Below the pieces are notes generated by a model. That model had not been told where the DNA came from and did no database searches. It saw nothing but the letters and a program-made list of their open reading frames with translations. A DNA stretch of 64,000 nt from Corynebacterium glucuronolyticum (GTDB taxonomy: Bacteria; Actinomycetota; Actinomycetes; Mycobacteriales; Mycobacteriaceae), in assembly GCA_022772305.1 (NCBI GenBank), contig JALFAQ010000061.1, forward strand, positions 1 to 64,000. Reading direction: 5' to 3'. A program made the translations under genes and the position numbers. Shown here in pieces: positions 4,143 to 9,120 of the stretch (the stretch's first letter is position 1; every line of letters starts with the position of its first letter).

Positions 4143-5486
4143 CTACTCCTCCAAGCGGATGACAGACTCAATACCACGCACAGCATCCAGCCCCTTAAGC
4201 TCGTTTACCACTTCTTCCAGATCCTCTTCGCGCGCGGTGTGCGTAACCAGGATGAGGCGGGCGTGGTCTTCGCCCTGGTGCTGACGCACTGTACGAAGCG
4301 AGATGCCGTGTTTGGTAAAGATCTTAGCGATGTCGGCGAGAACACCGATCCGGTCCTCCACCTCCATATCTACGTGGTAGCGGGTGTAGACATCGCCAAA
4401 GTCCGCAATGGGAAGGTTGGCGTACGTGGACTGGCCCGGGGCACGACCGCCGTGCACCTTGTTGCGGGCTGCACCGACGATGTCACCGAGGACAGCGGAG
4501 GCAGTCGGGTTGCCGCCTGCACCGTTGCCGTAGAACATGAGGCGGCCAGCTGCCTCTGCTTCAACGAAAATTGCGTTGAACGACTTGCTCACACTAGCCA
4601 GCGGGTGGCTGCGCGGCACGAGTGTGGGGTGAACGCGTGCGGAAACCACTTCTTTTCCTTCCTTGTTCTTAAATCGCTCGCAGATGGCGAGCAGCTTGAT
4701 GACATAGCCTGCGGCTTGCGCGGCCTTGATGTCGTCTGGGCTGATGTTGGTAATACCCTCGCGGTGTACATCCTTGGCGTACACGGGGGTGTGAAATGCG
4801 ATCGAGGCCAAGATCGCAGCCTTGCTGGCAGCATCGTAGCCCTCAACGTCGGCGGTGGGATCAGCTTCGGCGTAACCGAGGCGGGTGGCTTCAGCCAGCA
4901 TCTCATCGTAGTCGGCGCCGGTGGAATCCATACCATCAAGGATGTAGTTCGTCGTGCCGTTGACGATGCCCATCACGGACTTGATGCGGTCACCGGCAAG
5001 GGAACGGCGGAGGGGGCCGACCACGGGGATGGCTGCCGCGACGGCTGCCTCGTAGTACAGGTCAACATTGGACTCGTCAGATGCGTCCCCAAGTTCCTGG
5101 TAATGAGCAGCGACAAGTGCCTTATTCGCCGTGACAACAGATTTCCCGGCCTTGAGCGCTGCAAGCACGAGCTCACGCGGGTAGTCGATACCACCGATAA
5201 CCTCGACGACGATATCGACATCGTCGCGTTCAATCAGGCTGTAGGCATCATCCGTGAGGAGGTCAGCGGGAACCGAGTCGCGGTGCTTTTCCATATTTCG
5301 AACTGCGACACCCTTCACTTCCAGGGGGCCACCAATGCGGTGCTCGAGCTCGTCTGCGCACTCGTCCATCAAACGCAACACCTGAGCTCCGACGGTTCCA
5401 TGTCCCAACAGGGCAATTCCTACCGGGGACCCCTCCCCCTTGCCGGGGTTGTACTGAGGTGAAGCAGAACGGACGTTAGCAGTCAT
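4143..5486 (-). CDS. hom: Homoserine dehydrogenase
   Basis: 447 aa from the ATG at 5486, chosen because the protein then begins like C. glutamicum Hom (a short tail followed by [16 protein letters not shown]). An upstream TTG at 5531 would add 15 residues but lacks a Shine-Dalgarno and partly covers the promoter region. It reduces aspartate semialdehyde to homoserine at the branch to methionine, threonine and isoleucine. Seen in order: NAD(P)-binding [13 protein letters not shown], catalytic-domain segments [12 protein letters not shown] and [16 protein letters not shown], and a C-terminal ACT domain (about 370-447, from [19 protein letters not shown]) that in relatives mediates threonine inhibition. 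It is the first gene of hom-thrB. Confidence 0.95.
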
Positions 5487-5858: not shown

Positions 5859-6374
5859 GTGAACCGTAAGGTAACCAGGACCCTCGTCGCCGGCGCCACC
5901 GCCGTCGCCGTCGCCTTCTCCGCCTCCCCCGCCGCATCTGCCGATACCTTCACCGACCCGGTGACTGAAGGACTGGCCGACAAGCTGAAATCTAAGTCCG
6001 AGAACGAAAAGGTCAAGGACATTATGGGCCTGCTCAGCTCCGACGGCAAGGATCCGGTAGAGGGCTCCAACCGCCCGGTTGAAGGCCAGCTCCTCGACCT
6101 GCTGAGCTCCGAGACCGAAGCCGAAAAGGCCGAGAAGGACAAGAAGAAGAAGGAACAGGACGAACTACTCAAGGGCGCATCCTCCTCCGAGAAGATCGCA
6201 TACAGCATCTTCGGCAAGGGCTTCTCCAACACCACCGACGACGCAGCAAAGACCATCGCCATCGTCCTCGACGCAGGCCTTGCAGTCGGCATCGTCGTTC
6301 TCGTGCTTGCCGTCCTCAACGCCGCAGCTTCCATGGTGACCATTGGCCAGGCACTCCCAAACTTCGGTCTCTAA
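5859..6374 (+). CDS. Secreted protein with charged stalk and C-terminal hydrophobic helix
   Basis: 171 aa, no family recognised. A Sec signal peptide (about 1-29, cleavage near ASA|DTF) leads to a charged, helix-prone middle rich in Glu and Lys (about 70-110, including a run EKAEKDKKKKEQDE) that may form a coiled coil. A strong hydrophobic helix follows (about 127-155), ending in a short tail GQALPNFGL. This tail resembles the last residues of the two small genes downstream, so the three look like a family. GTG start at 5859 with AGGAG at 5849-5853. A good terminator follows, so it is transcribed separately from the next two. It is likely a cell-envelope protein; attachment by the C-terminal helix to the inner or mycolate membrane is inference. 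It sits between hom and lysA on the opposite strand. Confidence 0.8.
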   Translation: MNRKVTRTLVAGATAVAVAFSASPAASADTFTDPVTEGLADKLKSKSENEKVKDIMGLLSSDGKDPVEGSNRPVEGQLLDLLSSETEAEKAEKDKKKKEQDELLKGASSSEKIAYSIFGKGFSNTTDDAAKTIAIVLDAGLAVGIVVLVLAVLNAAASMVTIGQALPNFGL

Positions 6375-6463
6375 ATTCACCTGACATTCGGAATCCGGTT
6401 CTCTTTAGCACCGAATCTTTCCGACATACGCTGAATCTTTCTAATCCAGCGGTAAAACATCTC

Positions 6464-6516
6464 TAGAAAAGCGCTCCAGAGCAGTTCTGTTTGAATTGCT
6501 CCGGAGCGCTTTTCTA
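6464..6516 (+). terminator. Terminator of the secreted-protein gene at 5859
   Basis: A 20-bp stem with one mismatch (6464-6483 with 6497-6516) and a 13-nt loop. Its right arm ends in CGCTTTTCTA, giving a T-rich end on the plus strand, and the A-rich left arm gives the same on the minus strand. The rest of 6517-6875 holds no gene that I can support; it is the promoter region of the next gene. Confidence 0.8.
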
Positions 6517-6875
6517 TACACGAAAACCCATCAAACAAAATGCAGGCCCCACTCAATCCACAATCATTGAAGCTTCCCATTATCCTTAGGCACAGTTATT
6601 AACACCCCACTTCTCCGCCGAGAAGCCACAGCGCACAGCTAGATCCACCATCAGCTTCACCCCCAAACGGTGCCTATAAATCTTACCCCTGTAGTTTTAT
6701 GACAAATTTCACAATTCACACTGCGCGCACTTTTGCGCAGGCAAGGAACTTCCTCTAAGCATTTTCTTATGCTTAGCTGCTAGTTGTCTGCCTGTTGGCT
6801 ATTTACGTACTACAAATAGGTATTTGGTTTCGTAAACTGCAAGCTGTAACAAATCAACGATGGAAAGGAACTCTT

Positions 6876-7166
6876 ATGAGCCTGAAACGATCAGCAATTG
6901 CTTCAGCAATGAGCGCTGCACTCGTGCTGAGTGCCGTTCCCGCTACTGCAGATGAACTTCCCGCGGCGGACACCTCCTACCGCCAGGCAGCTGGCTCTCA
7001 GACAGGTAACGCTATCGGCTACAGTGCCCTAAACGCGATCTACACCGGTGTGTTTATTTTCGTCGGTGCACTGAGCGCTGGTGGCTTCTGGGGCATCATC
7101 TACAACGCCCTCGTCAGCCGTGGCATCATCCCTGGTCAGATCGAGCCGAACCTCCCGGTTCTGTAA
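6876..7166 (+). CDS. Small secreted single-helix protein, paralogue A
   Basis: 96 aa from ATG 6876, chosen because GGAAAGGAA at 6862-6870 precedes it and a clean signal peptide begins there; an upstream frame start at 6795 has neither. Signal peptide about 1-25 (cleavage near TATA|DEL), mature N-terminus DELPAAD, one hydrophobic glycine-rich helix (about 47-75), then RGIIPGQIEPNLPVL. The mature start and the Pro-Asn tail match the next gene (DEVPAAS; IQGNLIPNFP), so the two are tandem paralogues. No family recognised. About 60-70 mature residues with one amphipathic/hydrophobic helix is the size class of corynebacterial pore-forming or mycolate-membrane peptides, but that function is speculation. 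Confidence 0.8.
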   Translation: MSLKRSAIASAMSAALVLSAVPATADELPAADTSYRQAAGSQTGNAIGYSALNAIYTGVFIFVGALSAGGFWGIIYNALVSRGIIPGQIEPNLPVL

Positions 7167-7190
7167 CGGCTATACGAAAGGAAAAAACTC

Positions 7191-7493
7191 ATGCGCTCTG
7201 CACTTTCTCGCAGCTTCCTTGCAGCCGCTACGGCATGCGCGGTTGCAGTTTCCGGCACAACGGTTGCCGTTGCAGACGAAGTTCCTGCAGCTTCTGTGAC
7301 CACTGCTCGCCAGACTGCCGATGGTTCCGCCGCACAATCGGTCTACGAAATTGTCGGCTGGACTCTAACCGCCGTGGGCCTTGCAGCATGGATTGCTGAA
7401 ATCGCCTACGTGTACAACTTCCTCGTTCGCCATGGGACGATCCAGGGCAACCTGATCCCGAACTTCCCGTCCGCATCCTCTGACTTTATGTAG
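7191..7493 (+). CDS. Small secreted single-helix protein, paralogue B
   Basis: 100 aa. ATG 7191 with AAAGGAAAA a few bases upstream; only 24 bp after the previous gene, so the two are one transcript ending at the hairpin 7581-7620. Signal peptide about 1-28 (cleavage near VAVA|DEV), mature start DEVPAAS, one hydrophobic helix (about 52-75, VGWTLTAVGLAAWIAEIAYVY), and a tail NLIPNFPSASSDFM. Shared layout with the genes at 5859 and 6876: export signal, short linker, a single hydrophobic helix, and a Pro-Asn-Phe/Leu tail of about 10-15 residues. Function unknown; likely cell-surface. No cysteines are present in the mature part, so disulfide-based folding is excluded. Confidence 0.8.
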   Translation: MRSALSRSFLAAATACAVAVSGTTVAVADEVPAASVTTARQTADGSAAQSVYEIVGWTLTAVGLAAWIAEIAYVYNFLVRHGTIQGNLIPNFPSASSDFM

Positions 7494-7580
7494 GATTCTC
7501 ACCTGCTCTTCTAAGTCGATCGAGCAAGGCTCATACCTCGCTCATTGGAGCTTTTCGATGATCAGGTGACGAACGAAAAC

Positions 7581-7625
7581 GACCGGTCTACCACCTCGCT
7601 GGTGGTAGACCGGTCTTTTATCTTT
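7581..7625 (+). terminator. Bidirectional terminator between secreted-protein genes and lysA
   Basis: A perfect 15-bp stem (7581-7595 with 7601-7615), 5-nt loop and TTTTATCTTT tail. The A-rich 5' flank gives a T-run on the minus strand too, so it can also end the argS-lysA transcript. Confidence 0.9.
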
Positions 7626-7728: not shown

Positions 7729-9120
7729 CTAGAGCTGGTTACTGAGCACATCCTCGATGGTTTCGCGCTTCACCATGAGGAAAGCTTTGCCATCTTTGAC
7801 GGTGACAACGGCAGGGCGCAGCATCATGTTGTAGCGGGAGCTCATGGCATAGCAGTAGGCACCCGTGGCAGCAGTTGCGACGAGGTCACCGGTGGCAATG
7901 TCATCCGGGTAGGCTTCGTTGGTGATCAGAATGTCGCCGGACTCGCAGTGGGATCCCACCACGCGGGTCGGGATCGGCGTACCGGTGGCCTTTCTATTCA
8001 CTAGACGGAGGTCATATTCAGCTTGGTAAAGCGCTGGACGTAGGTTATCGCTCATGCCACCATCCACGGCGATGTAGCGACGTGTCTGCCGATCCGTCAC
8101 GTGCACGTCCTTCACCTGTCCCACCTCGTACACGGTGACCGTGGTGGGGCCGGCAATGGAACGACCCGGCTCAACCATGATGCGAGGAACATCAAGACCA
8201 AGCTTCTCGCAGCGACGTTCCACACGGGCAATAAGGTCTTGGGCAACATCGTCGACGTTCAGGGGATGGGAGTGAGCGGTGTAGGCAATGCCAAAGCCAC
8301 CGCCCAGATCTAGCATGGTCAGTGTCACGTTGCGCTTCTCGTGGAGCTCGACGAACAGAGACAAAACGCGTTCTGCAGCTTGGGAGAAGCCTTCCGCATC
8401 AAACACCTGGCTGCCCACGTGGCAGTGCAGGCCGACGAGGTCGAGATGCTCTGCGTCGAGGGCCTTTTCACACGCTGCATACGCGGAATCAGAGGCAAGG
8501 GAGAAGCCGAACTTCTGATCCTCGTGTGCCGTGGCAATCATTTCGTGTGTGTGCGCCTCGATGCCTGGTTTTACTCGGACCATGACCTTCTGTGTCACGC
8601 CTGCGCGGGCGGCGCATTCGTCAAGGAGACCGATTTCTCCCGGCGCGTCGAGGACAACAGTGCCCACTCCTGTGGTGACGATCTTGTCCAGGTAGGAAAC
8701 GGTCTTGTTGTTCCCGTGCGCGGTGATGCGCGCAGCCGGGAAGCCTGTGGCCAATGCGACCTGGAGCTCACCAAGGCTGGCCACATCCAGGTGCAGGCCT
8801 TCATCATTGACCCAGCGGGCAATCGCCTTGGTTAGGAAGGCCTTGGCCGCATAGTGCACATTTTCCGCGCCGAAGGCTGCTGCCATTGCCTGGCAGCGGG
8901 AGCGGAAATCGTCCTCGTCGACGACGAATAGCGGGGTGCCGTATTCGCGTGCAAGATCAGTCAGGCTCACTCCCGCAATGCTGACGGAGCCGTCGCTTTC
9001 ACGGTGAGCATTCTTCGGCCACACATGCGCGGGGAGGTCGTTGAACTCCTCAAGACTGCATGGAGCCGGCTGAGTAAAGCCACGCTCATAAGTCTCAGGA
9101 ATGAGACGTGAGTCGACCAC
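7729..9120 (-). CDS. lysA: Diaminopimelate decarboxylase LysA
   Basis: 463 aa. It decarboxylates meso-diaminopimelate to lysine using pyridoxal phosphate, the last lysine step. Fold-type III PLP enzyme: the PLP lysine is in [13 protein letters not shown] (about 88-100), LHCHVGSQ and LDLGGGFGI (about 280) hold the phosphate-binding part, and the C-terminal domain has [10 protein letters not shown] with the active-site Cys and [12 protein letters not shown] near the end. It starts with GTG at 9120, only 3 nt past the argS stop, so it is translationally coupled to argS as in other corynebacteria. In C. glutamicum argS-lysA is a known operon; nothing here indicates a separate promoter. Confidence 0.95.

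Follow-up and report, generated by a model that had tools for sequence, protein, structure and literature searches.

What are the three short ORFs, here called A, B and C, that lie between lysA and hom in a 64,000-nucleotide stretch of Corynebacterium glucuronolyticum DNA (the window), and in which layer of the cell envelope do their products reside? Both flanking genes are on the strand opposite to the three ORFs (Table 1). As the original prediction had noticed, each ORF codes for a Sec-type signal peptide, recognized by eye, and for one further hydrophobic helix. Their dN/dS values relative to genome G063 (0.29 for A, 0.22 for B and 0.17 for C) reveal purifying selection and thus real genes. 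The distance between lysA and hom is ≤450 bp in 62/77 loci with both genes found (5 of them Rhodococcus); the insertion, described earlier as splitting two amino-acid operons, is therefore real yet not unique.

Hairpins follow A and C, in agreement with the earlier statement that these genes have their own repeats and terminators. Hairpin I1 probably separates A from B and C; a second listing has this repeat only in part, on the minus strand. Hairpin I2 is common to C and lysA because T-runs flank it on both sides. B and C are probably expressed as one transcript. The mechanical ORF for B begins at a TTG at position 6795, upstream of the ATG chosen here.

Table 1. Features of the lysA-hom interval, with positions in the window.
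Feature	Position	Strand	Description
ORF A	5859-6374	+	171 aa, GTG start; signal peptide 1-28 (by reading), then a stalk rich in Lys/Glu with serines in LSSE/GASSSE, a C-terminal helix and the tail NAAASMVTIGQALPNFGL
Inverted repeat I1	6464-6516	.	terminator-like, between A and B; 24-nt arms, 92% complementary
ORF B	6876-7166	+	96 aa from ATG behind AAGGA site; signal peptide 1-25 (by reading), then a short stretch with Gly/Ser, the helix and FWGIIYNALVSRGIIPGQIEPNLPVL
A5 segment of B	7026-7130	+	E 1.1e-6; B is a row of A5
B-C gap	7167-7190	+	24 nt from B stop to C start; ribosome-binding-site-like AAAGGA
ORF C	7191-7493	+	100 aa; signal peptide 1-28 (by reading), then the stretch DGSAAQS, a long helix and YNFLVRHGTIQGNLIPNFPSASSDFM
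A5 segment of C	7341-7442	+	E 3.9e-11; leave-out score 21.0 bits, best shuffle 5.7
Hairpin I2	7577-7619	.	bidirectional terminator-like; serves C (+) and lysA (-)

Mature B and C are polypeptides of about 71-72 residues. A profile built from 16 family members outside the window, compared with 500 shuffles of each ORF, gives 28.2 bits to B (best shuffle 7.9) and 40.2 bits to C (best shuffle 8.9), whereas A obtains 1.9 bits and lies within its shuffles (best 3.0). By this measure of sequence B and C are paralogues in one Corynebacterium family, and the proposal of three paralogues stands for these two but not for A. The profile of the mature parts of 18 members (A3), in which an Asn and a Pro are invariant, matches B (E 1.4e-16) and C (E 3.3e-20), both being rows of it, and is found at E < 1e-6 in 21 of 242 Corynebacterium genomes, 15 of which supplied rows. 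Profile A2, with signal peptides included, was rejected for counting: it hits 168/242 genomes, many via the signal peptide alone, and A3 was used instead together with the segment profile A5 described below.

The layout of the family is a hydrophobic helix, then N-x2-V-x2-[GH]-x-[IV] and then a Pro-containing tail. Across species it is the helix end, this motif and the tail Pro that recur, instead of the Pro-Asn tail initially proposed. C terminates in LIPNFPSASSDFM and not in LIPNFPS as first read, while the DE(L/V)PAA start taken as a feature shared by the two mature proteins is not conserved in orthologues such as P0009 (DEIIVAD) and P0016 (DEAAPAP). The AlphaFold model of C, of low to moderate confidence, has one long helix at residues 47-80. 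Of 41 members, 23 have a Ser motif before the helix; shuffles average 14.4 and reach 23 at most. Adjacent pairs of family genes are found again in genomes G063, G165 and G011 and in contig C78 of the same genome as the window. Curated libraries (Pfam, NCBIfam) and solved structures (PDB) gave no match above cut-off for A, B, C or the family; the earlier statement that no family was recognized holds for the curated libraries, but an own family can be built. The suggestion of toxin-like peptides is unsupported, no family match pointing to it.

A has 5 relatives with 68-94% identity and a helix predicted at residues 127-164 in a structure model of low confidence. When A is compared with the B/C family, the profile-profile alignment is in register at the Asn but reaches only E 0.036 and a probability of 1.4%, and BLASTP gives E 0.20. 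The layout of A matches that of B and C while kinship by sequence is unproven; A is probably anchored in the envelope as well, as a third protein whose stalk is longer.

The helix and Asn motif of the small proteins are also carried by large ones. Profile A5 covers this segment alone; 4 of 27 cut segments were dropped before building it, two because they are short and two from L044, one of these with Tyr for Ile/Val at +8. C stands well above its shuffles when left out of A5, and B without its row scores 6.3 bits, within shuffles. The general segment profile thus does not recognize B, whose link goes via the small-protein family. Strong A5 matches end large surface proteins of other genomes, namely a 5'-nucleotidase (L243) and Rib-repeat proteins (L238-L242), several of them A5 rows, and weak ones are found in Rib-repeat proteins L250 and L252 and in an ExeM/NucH nuclease (L249). 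One Rib-repeat surface protein of the own genome also ends in the segment, by reading. In Excalibur proteins L155, L202 and L255 the segment is internal, followed by a Pro-rich linker and the Excalibur domain; L197 has the same layout with Tyr replacing Asn. Excalibur domains are typically extracytoplasmic, so the tail of the segment is probably exported. The Asn motif occurs in 1 of 12 5'-nucleotidases of Pks13-bearing genomes and weakly in 1 of 10 nucleases, the remaining ones sharing only a mostly Ser-containing stretch, the helix and a mostly non-basic tail.

The search for the C-terminal motif across corynebacterial genomes, suggested with the original prediction, identified the segment (A5, E ≤ 0.05) in 98 of 242 Corynebacterium genomes, 144 being without it. 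Among near-complete genomes it is present in 94 of 223 that bear Pks13 and in 0 of 12 that lack it (Fisher p 0.002, ignoring kinship, the 12 being of few lineages: 11 are placed, in 2 clades, and the hom tree leaves out G123). The segment does occur in two incomplete genomes that have no Pks13 match (G189, 53%; G236, 77%). Matches outside Corynebacterium were treated as chance: 301 genomes sampled from the family, Corynebacterium among them, give 23 that match A5 at E ≤ 0.05, 9 of them Corynebacterium, the best of the 14 non-Corynebacterium genomes reaches E 0.0025, and 3 fetched loci look by eye like ordinary membrane proteins. In G123, the sole Pks13-lacking genome with relatives of both surface enzymes and thus the one genome where a swap to sortase signals is observed, the 5'-nucleotidase ends LASTG-helix-RRQQEA and the nuclease LAATG-helix-RRRDS. 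The 12 intact 5'-nucleotidases and 10 intact nucleases of Pks13-bearing genomes have no sortase-type motif before the helix, counts that leave out the 5'-nucleotidase of G113, which is split (L276, L278), and L310, an incomplete nuclease frame of the own genome. Nuclease L306 has LAVTG, but behind the hydrophobic stretch, and nuclease L309 ends differently.

We favour, with moderate confidence, the reading that B and C belong to a family of little more than the helix-and-tail segment, whose members would insert in the mycomembrane, the waxy outer membrane, and assemble in pairs. The earlier idea of envelope-anchored structural peptides fits with a segment that ends surface proteins, is absent from Pks13-lacking near-complete genomes and is similar to the PS2 anchor as published, and with the sortase-type signal that two surface enzymes of G123 have in place of such a helix end. 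B and C are predicted from their sequence to be exported by Sec and cleaved by signal peptidase. The Ser/Gly/Ala-rich stretch before the helix would then be a likely O-mycoloylation site for Cmt1/MytC, by analogy with the Ser/Gly/Ala-rich sites described in PMC11066868, which reports no strict consensus. Modelled in C as 34 residues, the long helix could cross or deeply enter the mycomembrane with N-x2-V-x2-[GH]-x-[IV] at its end, and the Pro-containing tail would emerge on an exported side, as suggested by the Excalibur fusions of relatives. B and C probably hetero-oligomerise, like PorA with PorH, because they are 24 nt apart and such pairs recur. A broader scheme, which we put forward tentatively and with some doubt, is that the segment could be a C-terminal mycomembrane sorting domain exchanged for sortase signals upon mycolate loss, B/C-like pairs being channels or scaffolds that dock segment-bearing proteins. 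If true, this domain would be composed of a Ser-rich stretch, a long helix and an N-x2-V-x2-[GH]-x-[IV] cap, would be common to surface enzymes, adhesin-like repeat proteins and Excalibur proteins, and the channels or scaffolds of paired stand-alone copies would be hetero-oligomeric.

The motif bears on how proteins are sorted to the mycomembrane and retained in it. A role of terminal residues in sorting is a speculation of PMC12021427, and the accessible text of a 2022 survey of C. glutamicum anchor proteins (PMC8854784) does not contain the word mycomembrane. A short fixed-register motif found on large surface proteins and on stand-alone ones makes sorting accessible to point mutation and to fractionation of tagged proteins in C. 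glutamicum. Pairs of the stand-alone proteins are candidates for unrecognized small outer-membrane proteins, unnamed in the curated libraries searched.

Type I inner-membrane proteins also combine a signal peptide with a C-terminal hydrophobic helix. B and C could be of this kind, with an exported N-terminus, a stop-transfer helix and a cytoplasmic tail, perhaps as small complex subunits. The helices are hydrophobic enough to span a membrane (Kyte-Doolittle maxima over 19 residues outside the signal peptide of 2.86 in A, 1.75 in B and 1.63 in C), Arg or Arg-His directly follows them in B and C, and the net charge of 25 hand-collected tails averages +0.8, with 0 in B and C. We find this topology rather unlikely, however, since the same segment precedes Excalibur domains, the tails are near neutral and often Pro-rich, G123 has a sortase-type signal on its two surface enzymes, and the 12 Pks13-lacking genomes without the segment have an inner membrane too.

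Mycomembrane insertion could also take the form of a hetero-oligomeric channel, B and C being a Sec-exported counterpart of PorA/PorH. Their neighbouring, co-oriented genes, the recurrence of adjacent pairs and the long predicted helix of C are compatible with the pore-forming role considered in the original prediction, and PMC12632848 and PMC5310785 describe pairs of small helical proteins as established or presumed corynebacterial pores. It is nevertheless an unlikely assignment by analogy, PorA and PorH having no signal peptides and the B/C family no solved-structure match by sequence.

That the segment undergoes processing as a sorting signal, as LPXTG or PEP-CTERM segments do, with an unknown enzyme leaving released or covalently attached B/C peptides, we hold to be very improbable. 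Its modular C-terminal position on unrelated ectodomains, its replacement by LAxTG signals in a mycolate-free genome and the likely cell-wall linkage of PorH and ProtX reported in PMC12632848 would be accounted for, but the motif lies behind the helix and not before it, Excalibur proteins have the segment in an internal position, the helix of PS2 is reported to be retained as its membrane anchor, and cleavage before the helix would leave little of B and C. Chance resemblance of unrelated small exported proteins through common composition is hardly credible: A, similar by eye, does no better than shuffles and B is within them on the segment profile alone, but B and C both far exceed theirs with the mature-family profile, C does so also with the segment profile, and the genes are under purifying selection.

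The preferred reading, mycomembrane anchoring, can be set against the known envelope systems. PorA/PorH and ProtX, which are O-mycoloylated mycomembrane proteins, are like B and C very small proteins of the Corynebacterium envelope, and PorA/PorH are co-transcribed pairs predicted to be helical; B and C are likewise encoded as a pair on the same strand. Compared by description, PorA and PorH have 45 and 57 residues and no signal peptide, whereas B and C are longer and combine a Sec-type signal peptide with a single hydrophobic helix and a tail that contains Pro. PorB/PorC are closer to B and C in having, as published, a Sec-type signal peptide, co-transcription as a pair, Ser-rich ends and mycoloylation. 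They are, however, 126 and 123 residues long and PorB has a compact four-helix domain, while B and C have a single helix. A two-Cys exported protein from the same gap of another species, considered as a PorB relative, was rejected as it has no solved-structure match; this protein and two like it have no Pfam match above cut-off. LPXTG-type sortase signals share with the B/C segment a modular C-terminal hydrophobic helix on unrelated surface proteins. A, B and C have no LPXTG-like motif before the helix, by reading, and the segment differs also by its near-neutral tail and the conserved motif behind the helix.

The likeness to PS2 (CspB), judged from published descriptions, extends over the signal peptide, a C-terminal hydrophobic helix (about 25 residues) that follows a flexible stretch, and a short distal part, all found in B and C. 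Searches of the solved structures with profiles A3 and A4 and with one nuclease tail found no PS2 chain. The ectodomain of PS2 is large and forms a lattice, whereas that of B and C is almost absent. PS2 invariably terminates in Phe; the last residue is Leu in A and B and Met in C, so that none of the three ends in Phe, Pro or Lys. Among 19 representative tails (21 minus L166, cut by the locus end, and L224, cut by a stop), 4 end in Phe and 1 in Pro. Published work (PMC12337289, PMC12021427) describes the PS2 anchor as well as anchors like it on a metallophosphoesterase and on an ExeM/NucH nuclease, two carrier families that bear such helices here too. In our best reading of the sequences, B and C would be closest to PS2 S-layer-type mycomembrane anchors, as stand-alone forms of them.

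The interval between lysA and hom holds three ORFs, A, B and C, whose dN/dS values against the nearest relative G063 (0.29, 0.22 and 0.17) indicate that all are protein genes under selection. B and C, separated by 24 nt that include a ribosome-binding-site-like stretch, probably form one transcript. Signal peptides of A, B and C were identified by eye; outside them the 19-residue hydropathy maxima are 2.86, 1.75 and 1.63, respectively. The sequence comes from a Corynebacterium near C. glucuronolyticum: the C. glucuronolyticum protein P0009 is 84% identical to B and P0016, from the same species, is an orthologue of C; hom of G063 shares 96% identity with hom of the window. Elsewhere in the window, a 580-aa ORF adjoining a binding-protein gene looks, from its sequence, like a fusion of a molybdate-type permease with its ATPase (ModB-ModC).

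Features of the window and of the loci compared with it
Feature	Position	Strand	Context
binding-protein gene	434-1213	plus	window
ModB-ModC-like ORF	1191-2933	plus	window
hom	4143-5483	minus	one flank of gap
A	5859-6374	plus	between hom and lysA
hairpin, 24-nt arms	6464-6516		3' of A
B	6876-7166	plus	between hom and lysA
C	7191-7493	plus	between hom and lysA
terminator-like bidirectional hairpin	7577-7619		3' of C, common to C and lysA
lysA	7729-9120	minus	other flank of gap
exported-looking gap proteins	L115 5815-6663 and 6918-7622	minus	other species
exported-looking gap protein	L124 6824-7531	minus	other species
exported-looking gap protein	L122 3487-4173	plus	other species
repeat protein	L034 5100-5696, L118 6103-6699	minus	C. 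marambiense
relative of repeat protein	L117 2608-3054		G113
second small-protein pair	L254 984-1370 and 1413-1796	minus	own genome, contig C78
ORF with inner Met	L196 1324-1626	plus	G051
5'-nucleotidase, LASTG	L269 820-3168	minus	G123
ExeM/NucH nuclease, LAATG	L307 79-3852	plus	G123

Small exported proteins from other species can be aligned with B and C. A profile of 16 mature members, with both window sequences excluded, gives 28.2 bits to B and 40.2 bits to C, against best scores of 7.9 and 8.9 among 500 composition shuffles of each. The original prediction had made A their paralogue; A scores 1.9 bits, below its best shuffle (3.0), and is therefore a candidate member only. Profile-profile comparison places its Asn in register, but only at E 0.036 and a probability of 1.4%. 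Of 242 genomes of the genus scanned with the mature family profile, A3, 54 match at E <= 0.01 and 21 below 1e-6, 15 of the latter having contributed profile rows. Pfam, NCBIfam and solved structures gave nothing above cut-off for A, B, C or the family. A search of 5.8 billion proteins, with scoring limited to the 7997 candidates with most words in common, returned 17 proteins, the five named ones being from Corynebacterium. A family-like protein of C. marambiense carries about four near-identical 26-residue repeats (GSSVNDVTAKIKD.LGSSKDN...) ahead of its anchor, and its G113 relative has fewer.

By coordinates, a family member lies just upstream of hom on the opposite strand in 9/242 genomes (G000, G063, G165, G011, G112, G102, G139, G113 and G041), with lysA seen on the far side in their loci or those of their named twins; further members sit elsewhere in their own genomes. 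One MAG (L044) has, by reading, six or seven small exported-looking ORFs in the gap. Among 80 loci surveyed (five from Rhodococcus, the rest from Corynebacterium or close relatives), lysA and hom were both located in 77 and are separated by at most 450 bp in 62 of these. The gap of other species holds different exported genes, among them some for exported-looking proteins of about 230-280 residues that have Cys and Ser-rich ends (such as GSSFGSS or FLSS). Pfam gave no match above cut-off for those of L124, L115 (6918-7622) and L122, and solved structures no convincing match for that of L124.

The conserved part of the family is a hydrophobic helix followed by the motif N-x2-V-x2-[GH]-x-[IV] and a Pro-containing tail. 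Of 27 such segments cut in register at one Asn, 23 were kept in the 35-column alignment A5, one row having a one-residue gap ahead of the helix. The Asn is present in 23/23 by construction and is invariant also in A3, whose construction did not require it; V follows at +3 in 16/23, G or H at +6 in 22/23 and I or V at +8 in 22/23. A5 matches 98/242 Corynebacterium genomes at E <= 0.05, some of which contributed rows. Outside the genus, 14 non-Corynebacterium genomes match in a sample of 301 genomes of the taxonomic family, none convincingly. The matches in the window's own genome are B, C and two proteins of contig C78 (E 6.6e-9 and 7.9e-5), themselves included in A5. This pair consists of adjacent small exported proteins whose segments read VNYGLNEGFIKF and YNYLKYNGII, and its counterpart is also adjacent in G063 (L251). 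In G051, starting the L196 ORF at an inner Met would give a leaderless 41-residue polypeptide, MALLSSIASFVVFWAIVGVIYNSAVHRGYLRLPPIPNYPAL, with the segment, no signal peptide and a PorA-like size.

The segment also ends proteins with large ectodomains. A5 strongly matches a 5'-nucleotidase (L243) and RibLong/YPDG repeat proteins (L238-L242), some of which are A5 rows; L249, an ExeM/NucH nuclease that has a lamin-tail domain, is a weak match (E 0.018). On contig C8 of the window's own genome, the last residues of a 793-residue RibLong protein, GGYNWAHSQGLI, fall in register by eye but score only E 1.7 with A5. With B and C removed from A5, C scores 21.0 bits against 5.7 for its best shuffle; B scores 6.3 bits, inside the range of its shuffles, and its tie to the large proteins thus goes via the small-protein family. 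L155, L202 and L255 carry the segment internally, ahead of a Pro-rich linker and an Excalibur domain, and L197 is built alike but with Tyr replacing the Asn. As domains of this kind are typically found outside the cytoplasm, export of the tail is probable in L155, L202 and L255. These fusions argue against a cytoplasmic tail, and may do so for B and C by extension from their relatives.

Distribution of the segment was compared with that of Pks13 (NF040607), taken as marker of mycolate synthesis and scored absent when no match reached E <= 1e-50. It is absent from 14/242 genomes, 12 near-complete and two incomplete (G189, 53%; G236, 77%). Both incomplete genomes match A5. Among the 235 genomes with completeness >= 90% and contamination <= 5%, A5 matches 94/223 Pks13-bearing genomes versus 0/12 Pks13-lacking ones (Fisher p 0.002, ignoring kinship). 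A hom tree, which leaves out G123, splits the other 11 of these 12 into two clades; C. amycolatum and C. lactis belong to the first, the kroppenstedtii group to the second; two or three events are therefore counted.

All evidence for an anchor swap comes from one Pks13-lacking genome, G123, in which two surface enzymes carry a sortase-type signal in place of such a helix end. The 5'-nucleotidase relative occurs in 13/31 genomes searched and, among the Pks13-lacking ones, in 1/12, G123, where it ends in LASTG, a helix and RRQQEA. No LPxTG-like motif occurs within the final 60 residues of the 12 intact 5'-nucleotidases of 11 Pks13-bearing genomes, whose C-termini consist of a mostly Ser/Gly-containing stretch, a helix and a short tail; the G113 gene, in two frames (L276, L278), was excluded from the counts. 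The ExeM/NucH nuclease matches in 12/28 genomes. That of G123 ends in LAATG, a helix and RRRDS, and an LPxTG-like motif is absent from 9/10 intact nucleases of Pks13-bearing genomes; L306 has LAVTG, located behind the hydrophobic stretch. The C-terminus of L309, also among these ten, consists of two hydrophobic stretches and TESK. Since the Asn motif is found in 1/12 of the Pks13-bearing 5'-nucleotidases and weakly in 1/10 of the nucleases, the wider class is a Ser-rich stretch, a helix and a mostly non-basic tail, the Asn motif being one form of it.

Of the 41 members whose helix is preceded by 12 or more residues, close relatives included, 23 carry GS[SATG] or [GAS]SS there; when these stretches were shuffled 1000 times, the count averaged 14.4 and reached 23 at most. 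O-mycoloylation sites, in the accessible part of PMC11066868, are Ser, less often Thr, amid Ser/Gly/Ala with no strict consensus. AlphaFold2 models C (15 sequences) as a single long helix, residues 47-80, that ends four residues past the Asn (pLDDT 66-74 for residues 51-80, mean 54.7), and gives A a low-confidence helix at 127-164 (mean 45.6). These are helix predictions, not folds.

The data show the genes, the family of B and C, the presence of its segment on large proteins and the spread of that segment over the genomes searched. We favor the hypothesis that B and C are exported by Sec, inserted in the mycomembrane and mycoloylated, and that B pairs with C. The concept of anchoring proteins in the mycomembrane by their C-terminus has been published; the Asn motif, stand-alone anchors and the sortase swap were not found described in the literature searched, supplementary figures outside. 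In the available portions of these sources, a C-terminal hydrophobic helix holds the S-layer protein PS2 in the mycomembrane (PMC12337289), and PS2-like anchors are reported for two enzymes, a metallophosphoesterase and a nuclease of the ExeM/NucH type, with the speculation that their last residues aid anchoring or sorting (PMC12021427). B and C resemble such anchors without cargo. Corynebacterial porins are thought, in what is accessible of PMC12632848, PMC5310785 and PMC11927696, to be built from small co-encoded helical pairs, and B and C are likewise such a pair. On the PS2 and porin precedents, their location in the mycomembrane is likely, pairing is plausible and a pore possible only.
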